Positions 55,177 to 57,132 of a stretch of 64,000 nt of DNA are shown in pieces; position 1 is the stretch's first letter, and each line of letters starts with the position of its first letter. The position numbers were made by a program, and so were the translations under genes. The stretch is from Alphaproteobacteria bacterium (GTDB lineage Bacteria > Pseudomonadota > Alphaproteobacteria > Sphingomonadales > Sphingomonadaceae). The stretch lies in assembly GCA_018823325.1 (NCBI GenBank), contig JAHJIJ010000002.1, forward strand, positions 62,001 to 126,000, read 5' to 3'. A model generated the notes under the pieces. The model was given only the letters and a program-made list of their open reading frames with translations. It was not told the DNA's origin and searched no databases.

Positions 55177-55935
55177 TCAGGCTTGCGCGAGCGCTTCCTC
55201 AGCCGGCGGCTCGTCCATCGCGCCGAAATCGGCACCCGAAACGACAGCAGCGTTCTGGTTGCCACGGGTGGCAGCCTGGGCCAGCGCTTCGCAGTAAAGG
55301 CGGATCGCGCGGCTCGCATCGTCATTGGCGGGGACCGGGAAAGCGATGCCCGACGGATCGACGTTCGAGTCGAGGACCGCGACCACCGGAATACCGAGCG
55401 TGTTGGCTTCCTTGATCGCCAGCTCTTCCTTGTTCACGTCGATCACGAACATCACGTCCGGAATGCCGCCCATGTCGCGGATGCCGCCCAGCGACAGCTC
55501 GAGCTTGTCGCGCTCGCGAGTCATCTGAAGGACTTCCTTCTTGGTCAGACCGTGGGTGTCGCCCGAGAGCTTCTCCTCAAGCGACTTCAGGCGCTTGATC
55601 GAACCGGAAATCGTCTTCCAGTTGGTGAGCATGCCGCCCAGCCAGCGATGATTGACGAAATGCTGGCCCGAACGACGGGCTGCCTCGGCAATGGACTCCT
55701 GCGCCTGACGCTTCGTGCCCACGAACAGCACCTTGCCGCCGGCGGCAACAGTCGACGACACGAAGTCGAGCGCGCGCGCAAAGAGCGGAACGGTCTGCGA
55801 GAGATCGATGATGTGAATGCCATTCCGCTCGCCGAAAATGTACGGCTTCATGCGGGGATTCCAGCGGTGCGTCTGGTGGCCGAAATGTGCGCCGGCCTCG
55901 ATCAATTGGTGCAGGGTGACGACAGGTGCCGCCAT
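55177..55935 (-). CDS. rpsB: 30S ribosomal protein S2
   Basis: A 252-residue S2. Signatures include [20 protein letters not shown] at the N-terminus, [21 protein letters not shown], and [16 protein letters not shown], then [20 protein letters not shown]. It starts with ATG at 55935, seven bases after GGAAGGAG. It is the first gene of the long leftward series rpsB-tsf-pyrH-frr-uppS-cdsA-dxr-rseP-bamA-skp-fabZ. Confidence 0.98.
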
Positions 55936-56056: not shown

Positions 56057-56086
56057 TTGACTCCGCCCCTGATATAGAACAAATAG
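56057..56086 (+). promoter_or_regulatory. Candidate promoter of the 77-residue protein gene
   Basis: TTGACT (56057-56062) is a good -35; after 18 bases AAATAG (56081-56086) is a plausible -10. The SOS box overlaps this -10, which is the usual place for LexA repression. Confidence 0.35.
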
Positions 56087-56091
56087 AGAAC
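56077..56091. promoter_or_regulatory. LexA (SOS) box, alphaproteobacterial type
   Basis: GAACAAATAGAGAAC is an exact GAAC-N7-GAAC direct repeat (GTTC-N7-GTTC on the other strand), the known LexA consensus in Alphaproteobacteria. It lies 45 bases before a 77-residue ORF and, on the other side, about 140 bases before rpsB. Position favours control of the small ORF. Confidence 0.6.
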
Positions 56092-56135
56092 ATATCGCCA
56101 ATATGCAGCTTCAGGCGGATAAGAAAGGAACAACG

Positions 56136-56369
56136 ATGTTCTATCTTTTGGGATGTGCGCTTTTCGCAATGGCAGGCCTCAGCGCCCTCATGATCATGGC
56201 AAAAGACGTCCACCACTATCATGGCATCATGATGCGCTCGCTGAAGACGCTCAGTTTGGATGGCTGGAATCCGGCGGTGGCCGAAAGGCAGGAGCTGTCT
56301 GCGCTGGAACTTAATCCTGCTGTGTTGACGATGCGCCCGAGAGCCGCCGTTGCACTCGCGCGTAACTGA
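56136..56369 (+). CDS. Small membrane protein behind a LexA-type box
   Basis: A 77-residue protein beginning MFYLLGCALFAMAGLSALMI, one hydrophobic helix with a short N-terminus. The rest is soluble: DVHHYHGIMMRSLKTLSLDG, then WNPAVAERQELSALELNPA and a basic end. AAGAAAGGAAC lies before the ATG. No family was recognised. Upstream lies an exact GAAC-N7-GAAC box over the likely promoter, so it may be induced by DNA damage. Its last 59 bases overlap the 3' end of convergent pssA. In Caulobacter, SOS induces the small membrane division inhibitor SidA (known); a like role here is only a guess. Confidence 0.6.
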   Translation: MFYLLGCALFAMAGLSALMIMAKDVHHYHGIMMRSLKTLSLDGWNPAVAERQELSALELNPAVLTMRPRAAVALARN

Positions 56370-57132
56370 TGATGCCGACAGGCAGCAATGCGATATAAGC
56401 CACCGACAGTATAAGCAGAGCGTGCCAAGGCGCCACCATCAGGCTCGCCGCAAAGACGCCAGCCAGGAGAATGGCAAAGAGGCGCCAGGCCGGCGGCACG
56501 CGCAGCCCCTTCCAGCCCAATGTGGGCAGGCTGGAGATCATCAGGAACGCTGAAACGACGATCCATGGCGCGACAAGCCGCCAATCCCGAAAGACGTCCA
56601 GACCAGTGATGAACCAGGCATAAAGTGGCAGGAGCGCGATACCCGCTCCCGCCGGCGCCGGTACGCCTGTAAGGAAGCCAGCGGCCTTGCGAGGCTGGTC
56701 GACAATATCGAGGCTTGCATTGAAGCGGGCCAGTCGAAGCGCACAACTCAGCGCCAGCACCAGGGCAACAATCCAGCCGAAACGCGGCATTGACTGGAGC
56801 GACCAGAGATAGACGAGAAGAGCGGGCGAGACGCCAAACGCAATTGCATCCGAGAGGGAATCAAGCTCAGCACCGAAGCGGCTATCGGCCCGGAGCAATC
56901 GGGCAACCCGACCATCGATACCGTCCAGAACGCCAGCAAAGATGATCGCAGCGACGGCAAGCTGCCATTCGCCGGAGATCCCATACCGAATGGCGGTAAG
57001 ACCGAAGCAAAGCGCCATCGCAGTGATGGCATTAGGCGCGACCTGACGCAGCGTAATGCCCCTGCTCATCCGCAGGGACATGGGGCGCGGGCGCCTCGTC
57101 ACTTTGGCCCCGCTTTTAGACGCGCTCTGCAC
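56311..57132 (-). CDS. pssA: CDP-diacylglycerol--serine O-phosphatidyltransferase
   Basis: A CDP-alcohol phosphatidyltransferase of up to 273 residues; the conserved part begins near SLRMSRGITLRQVAPNAITA, so a start around residue 18-22 is possible. The catalytic motif is DGRVARLLRADSRFGAELDS followed by LSD, matching D-G-x2-A-R-x8-G-x3-D-x3-D. Several membrane helices follow. It makes phosphatidylserine, which Psd, encoded just upstream, decarboxylates. The 3' end overlaps the small LexA-box gene by 59 bases. Confidence 0.95.
   Translation of the reverse strand: MQSASKSGAKVTRRPRPMSLRMSRGITLRQVAPNAITAMALCFGLTAIRYGISGEWQLAVAAIIFAGVLDGIDGRVARLLRADSRFGAELDSLSDAIAFGVSPALLVYLWSLQSMPRFGWIVALVLALSCALRLARFNASLDIVDQPRKAAGFLTGVPAPAGAGIALLPLYAWFITGLDVFRDWRLVAPWIVVSAFLMISSLPTLGWKGLRVPPAWRLFAILLAGVFAASLMVAPWHALLILSVAYIALLPVGIISYARVQRRLSGASSTQQD

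Follow-up and report, generated by a model that had tools for sequence, protein, structure and literature searches.

SulA is a soluble, SOS-induced inhibitor of cell division that is removed by proteolysis, SidA of Caulobacter is a protein of 29 amino acids, and TisB is an SOS-linked peptide with a single helix. According to PMC4211646, the target of SulA is FtsZ, and SidA and DidA act on FtsW/FtsN, ring formation not being stopped. Constitutive SidA makes lexA mutants of Caulobacter filament (PMC12700426). The YneA protein binds FtsW by its helix (PMC13396833) and is cleared by the proteases YlbL and CtpA (PMC6051672). Searches of open-licence papers yielded no description, for sphingomonads, of an SOS- or LexA-controlled gene like the one presented here, or of a damage-induced division brake. 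The window analysed, i.e. the whole stretch of 64 kb from a member of the Sphingomonadaceae, contains a small gene behind a LexA-type box which is a strong candidate for a new brake induced by DNA damage and acting, probably, on cell division.

Promoter region of the small gene

The sequence GAACAAATAGAGAAC, a GAAC-N7-GAAC repeat on the + strand (56077-56091), is located 44 bases 5' of a 77-codon gene for an SOS-associated small membrane protein (56136-56369, + strand). It matches GTTC-N7-GTTC, the LexA motif of Alphaproteobacteria (PMC12700426). A -35-like hexamer, TTGACT, is found at 56057-56062 (+), and a spacer of 17 bases separates it from the -10-like hexamer CAAATA (56080-56085, +), which falls within the box. 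This confirms the preliminary description of a perfect repeat over the likely -10; CAAATA, a weak match to TATAAT, is read as a putative -10. The same description began the feature at 56057, a coordinate that belongs to the -35-like hexamer, while the box proper starts at 56077. A ribosome-binding-like AAAGGA (56124-56129, +) lies 6 bases 5' of the ATG. The flanking genes are rpsB (55177-55935, - strand), a divergent neighbour which served as the anchor of the comparison, and a convergent, pssA-like CDP-alcohol phosphatidyltransferase gene (56311-57132, - strand; start uncertain, function read by eye), the 3' end of which, with its stop at 56311, is overlapped by the small gene over 59 bases.

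No other GAAC-N7-GAAC is present in the window, and shuffling gives a mean chance expectation of 1.26 per 64 kb. As a lone box per 64-kb window is at chance level, the box alone is not significant and needs outside support. Judged from the sequences compared, its significance comes from the context, namely its genome-wide rank and its retention in syntenic loci.

LexA-type motifs in the genome

The whole genome contains 97 perfect motifs, versus 78 for the reversed motif. Outside the window, 38 of 96 motifs are intergenic, compared to a noncoding share of 15.1% in the fetched regions (binomial p = 5e-9), these regions being centred on boxes and the coding/noncoding assignment relying on our own codon-score gene calls. 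The reversed motif occurs only three times in the fetched regions of this genome, too rarely for a coding/noncoding control. The same motif precedes lexA, recA, uvrA, dinB, radA, nrdA, rmuC and mmcB, as recognised by NCBIfam or Pfam (RmuC falls below the NCBIfam and above the Pfam cut-off). A UvrD/PcrA helicase gene, cut by the region end and scoring below its cut-off, also stands behind the motif, as do genes of the ImuA-like (below the curated cut-off), radical-SAM and metallophosphoesterase types. Recognised repair or replication genes stand behind about a dozen of the 38 motifs in intergenic positions; the others precede unrelated or unrecognised genes, or no gene.

The box in the window ranks first of the 97 when scored with a matrix built on 12 sites that precede genes judged repair-related; these sites were chosen by hand, exclude the window's own and are themselves among the 97 ranked. 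The genome scan with GTTC-N7-GTTC suggested in the preliminary description is thus in favour of its LexA reading, the motif standing before lexA and recA in the same genome and the window's box heading the list. Methylglyoxal raises lexA and radA together in Sphingobium chlorophenolicum (PMC6247019), and this agrees with the motif shared by the two genes here. Sequence evidence makes it highly probable that the small gene is under LexA control.

Other genes near such boxes were also seen. A DUF6771 gene of 59 amino acids (L010:1526-1702) starts 10 bp behind a LexA-type box, and may encode an SOS protein. An abortive-infection gene of the AbiJ type (L023:165-1466, minus strand) starts about 34 bp from a GAAC-N7-GAAC box, which hints at a damage-linked phage defence. 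The radical-SAM gene (L075:2194-3270) is situated 9 bp behind its box and adjoins rmuC, which has a box of its own.

Conservation across relatives

A direct protein search gave matches in only 3 of 61 genomes, the own genome included, because the protein evolves too fast; the two diverged homologues found are both in the same place. With a profile of three rows, matches were obtained in 23 of 94 genus genomes, again including the own, at E <= 0.1. Both rpsB and pssA were found beside 16 of the 27 profile-matched places, the rest being judged chance matches, and a perfect box is present in 14 of these 16 syntenic loci (L042 and L043 have only degenerate boxes). Since protein similarity was too weak to depend on, the comparison was anchored on rpsB. 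The 140 rpsB loci comprise 30 genus genomes (29 without any protein match and one with a chance match), the best 30 of 113 order-wide matches (all from the same family, Sphingomonadaceae, with the window's locus among them) and the best 80 of 570 named-record matches. Of these, 138 were usable, L153 and L241 being dropped as too short. As the genome collections overlap, the loci counted below are not all independent genomes, and proteins were therefore counted as distinct sequences.

Both rpsB and pssA are in place in 121 of the 138 usable loci, and pssA is not in place in 17. According to the preliminary description, a small membrane protein with one helix, possibly a new SOS effector, is expressed from an SOS (LexA) box, and loss of the box from relatives had been set beforehand as the possible refutation of this proposal. 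The box is kept, and so supports the proposal: it is perfect between rpsB and pssA in 120 of the 121 syntenic loci, the remaining one (L147) having one mismatch, and it is also found at most of the shifted copies. The reversed motif is absent between rpsB and pssA in all 121 loci, and a GAAC pair with a spacing of 6 or 8, taken as a control, occurs in 10 of these regions; we think that such control matches arise partly from a third GAAC half-site. A box in the opposite orientation is found in 8 of the 138 loci. In the 30 genus loci, average agreement is 80% for the spacer bases and 57-60% for the 45-base flanks, the identity of 100% in the half-sites being a product of construction, as the boxes were found by those very bases.

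The promoter layout is retained in two forms. TTGAC is located at -20/-19 of a box in 42 of the 110 distinct loci and at -9 to -12 in another 65, i.e. at fixed places before the box in 107 of the 110. Where TTGAC lies near -20 (42 loci), the -10 place reads CATAAA in 12 and CATAAG in 12. The box thus either covers the -10 or fills the gap between -35 and -10, and both layouts fit repression. Two or three full boxes are present in 23 of the 110 distinct loci. Separately, a third GAAC half-site is seen 5 bases past the box in at least nine tenths of 30 loci (L110-L139, consensus). Five further regions from the family were read, and four of them contain the box and the gene while L215 contains neither.

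Displaced copies

In the window the divergent rpsB starts about 140 bp from the box, and the box might consequently serve rpsB rather than the small gene. The loci in which the usual arrangement is broken bear on this question. Nine of the 17 loci without pssA in place are from named records, and in each of these nine a perfect box precedes a one-helix gene; the distance to rpsB is the usual one in L268 and 0.7-1.1 kb in the remaining eight. The genomes of the other eight loci, together with those of L147 and L153, make up ten genomes that were re-searched with a profile of 65 rows. In five of the ten, a homologue directly behind a perfect box lies at 0.7-4.8 kb from rpsB (L302-L305 and L307). 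In L306, which is from the same genome as L147, the homologue is in the ordinary place behind a box with one mismatch. A weak profile match (L308; E = 0.0026) is located more than 400 kb from rpsB and has a one-mismatch box, TTGAC before it and an LAA end. The 65-row profile detected no convincing homologue in three of the ten re-searched genomes (G198, G209 and G181). Regulation of rpsB by the box is rejected as very improbable: the promoter elements point toward the small gene, the perfect box stays directly ahead of the small gene in copies lying 0.7-4.8 kb from rpsB, and even the weak match far from rpsB has its near-perfect box.

The encoded protein

The 77-codon ORF is very likely a real gene, as suggested by the AAAGGA 5' of it, the MFYxLG start that two homologues have in common and the dN/dS values of its relatives. 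An ORF with one helix follows the box in 118 of the 138 loci, corresponding to 110 distinct proteins of 52-102 amino acids (median 75). The ORFs were chosen by hydrophobicity, start position and start-site features, the C-terminus not being used. Three boxed loci had no ORF at first choice: in L249 and L279 the gene is slightly further off, ends with AAA and EVA, respectively, and is outside the 110, and in L161 none was found. In L270 the box is at 427, beyond the first limit of 420 bases, and the search behind this box gave no ORF. Over 94 pairs of relatives that are 70-97% identical, the median dN/dS is 0.21 and the maximum 0.56; these pairs are not independent, and the window protein is in no pair that close. 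The mean column identity across 65 chosen proteins is only 19%, with five nearly invariant columns (F10, P46, R67, A71 and A72). The proteins are fast-evolving and under purifying selection.

AlphaFold2 (alignment A2) predicts a single long helix at residues 2-38 (56139-56249, +), with the membrane segment in about the first 20 residues, followed by a tail of low confidence at codons 39-77 (56250-56366, +), which ends in PRAAVALARN, AA or AAA being the usual end among relatives, and includes a short uncertain helix at 46-52. The block pLDDT is 95-98 for residues 1-30 and 82 for residues 31-40. The 77-residue gene with one membrane helix reported in the preliminary description is upheld by the ORF, by the homologues and by this prediction. 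The tail carries a net positive charge in all 110 proteins (median +6), its commonest residues near the end being Pro, Arg and Ala, and 106 of the 110 carry no net charge ahead of the helix. By the positive-inside rule a basic flank stays in the cytoplasm, and a basic tail combined with a neutral N-terminal flank therefore places the tail, probably, in the cytoplasm.

Membership in a known Pfam, NCBIfam or PHROG family was rejected, as none fits: Pfam and NCBIfam gave only matches to one member each among the 65 at E <= 0.01, and PHROGs gave no match for the family proteins. The PDB gave two matches, neither of them convincing: a weak one to PscE, a chain of 35 residues (E = 0.017), and a worse one.

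Ala-Ala forms the C-terminus of 98 of the 110 distinct proteins and a final Ala is found in 107, compared to an Ala-Ala end in 15 of 282 proteins predicted from the window and from the regions fetched elsewhere in this genome; the Ala codons at this end vary among the family proteins. All eight further proteins outside the first count also end in Ala-Ala. The window protein ends in ARN and is one of three distinct proteins that do not end in Ala. Neither the Ala-Ala end of the family nor its absence from the window protein featured in the preliminary description. Its last residues (56337-56366, PRAAVALARN) align as RAA followed by an extension, VALARN, which likely reflects the loss of the old stop in this species and could also be an assembly error. 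CtrA of Caulobacter is one case of an Ala-Ala end recognised by ClpXP. ClpXP commonly recognises Ala-Ala as a degradation signal in Caulobacter, another example being CdnL (PMC11034885). Most of the family proteins have an end that matches this C-degron, and the window protein does not. By analogy, clearance of the Ala-Ala family proteins by ClpXP is somewhat favoured, and the ARN end means that this step cannot apply unchanged to the protein of the window.

These data also bear on whether chance alone produced the ORF or the box, as the expectation of one box per window might suggest. Against it stand the 120 perfect boxes in 121 syntenic loci, the 110 one-helix proteins, their Ala-Ala ends, the dN/dS of 0.21 and the displaced copies. 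A chance origin of either is ruled out by this conservation, and we regard it as exceedingly improbable.

Distribution beyond the Sphingomonadaceae

Five other families of the order were represented by 15 regions, and none of these regions has a box within about 3 kb upstream of rpsB. The class was sampled with 20 regions from other families, and three of them (L185, L195 and L199) have a LexA-type box before a one-helix ORF of 35-56 amino acids, just upstream of a dnaE-like gene (dnaE read by eye) and about 4 kb upstream of rpsB. The gene for SidA in Caulobacter is CC1927, next to dnaE, CC1926. The designation of CC1926 as dnaE of Caulobacter is given in PMC1839093. The arrangement in the three regions resembles the place so assigned to SidA. 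A SidA-like boxed gene was also sought before dnaE of the window's genome and none is there, the 1.5 kb upstream containing no box even with one mismatch allowed. The sphingomonad gene may hence do the job of SidA from another place, by analogy.

Possible function

The explanation that we find best, and consider slightly favoured overall, is that of a LexA-repressed small inner-membrane protein which acts as a division brake and is cleared by ClpXP. Its directly supported parts are the box, the promoter layout, the conservation, the coding signal, the helix prediction and the conserved Ala-Ala end. In the absence of damage, LexA bound to the box would block transcription, the box covering the -10 here and occupying the stretch between the two promoter hexamers in other genera. 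Upon damage, RecA would trigger self-cleavage of LexA and the small gene would be switched on. The protein would then insert by its N-terminal helix, the basic tail probably being in the cytoplasm, and would delay division, in the manner of SidA and YneA, via the complex for septal wall synthesis (FtsW/FtsI/FtsN). Once repair is complete, ClpXP would remove the protein through its C-terminal Ala-Ala, a step not expected for the window's own protein. Whether the protein is indeed a division brake is, from the analogies available, evenly balanced. The basic, probably cytoplasmic tail is unlike the peptidoglycan-binding LysM domain of YneA, which counts against the analogy.

An SOS box before a small protein with one helix would fit equally well with a LexA-controlled, membrane-active growth-arrest peptide of the TisB/DinQ type, which would lower the membrane potential or slow metabolism and leave the septum unblocked. 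DinQ of E. coli is such an SOS-regulated, toxic single-helix peptide (PMC3567139). However, the length of 52-102 amino acids, the long basic tail and the conserved C-terminus suggest more than a pore or leak activity, and we consider this type of peptide rather unlikely. Alternatively, the LexA-controlled protein could serve as an adaptor or modulator in some other process of the membrane or of repair, its basic tail tethering a repair factor or a protease to the membrane, for instance. The net basic charge of the tail in 110 of 110 proteins (median +6) and the prevalence of Pro, Arg and Ala near its end are consistent with such a role, but the poor conservation of the protein, with merely five nearly invariant columns among the 65 aligned, is not what an adaptor would suggest, and its probability appears similarly low.

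If the division brake is the correct reading, the Sphingomonadaceae may have their own, undescribed SOS checkpoint protein, usually located by rpsB: a fast-evolving one-helix protein, expressed from a LexA promoter that hardly varies, with its basic tail in the cytoplasm and a built-in Ala-Ala degron through which ClpXP would set the time of release from arrest. This protein would have arisen separately from SidA and would replace it. This wider proposal is tentative, and we hold it with somewhat more doubt than confidence. The family supplies a candidate division brake in many culturable species, and a single small alteration of its Ala-Ala end would put recovery from arrest directly to the test. 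The combination of a near-invariant control region and a fast-changing protein could help to show how checkpoint proteins are reinvented. Anchoring on synteny and operator, in turn, finds unannotated small genes where protein similarity fails.

Comparison with known systems

TisB and DinQ are also SOS-linked one-helix peptides, whereas the sphingomonad protein is longer and has a basic tail and a conserved C-terminus. SulA is soluble and acts on FtsZ, in contrast to the predicted membrane protein of the sphingomonads. SidA is an SOS-controlled membrane protein with one helix, features which the window protein shares at the level of sequence and prediction. It is shorter, with its 29 amino acids, and is presumably located by dnaE, whereas the sphingomonad gene is located by rpsB and pssA. 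SidA of Caulobacter crescentus is an SOS-induced membrane division inhibitor from an alphaproteobacterium (PMC4211646, PMC12700426). DidA of the same species is a damage-induced division inhibitor of 71 amino acids with one membrane helix (PMC4211646). DidA is SOS-independent and driven by DriD, whereas the sphingomonad gene has a conserved LexA box. YneA of Bacillus, ChiZ of Mycobacterium and SosA of Staphylococcus are also SOS- or damage-induced membrane proteins that act late in division. YneA and ChiZ carry a LysM domain, whereas the sphingomonad tail is basic, probably cytoplasmic and mostly ends in Ala-Ala; no Pfam match to LysM after the helix was obtained at E <= 0.01 in the 65 members. 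An SOS-induced small membrane protein is thus of a known kind, while the sphingomonad family and its built-in Ala-Ala end appear to be new.
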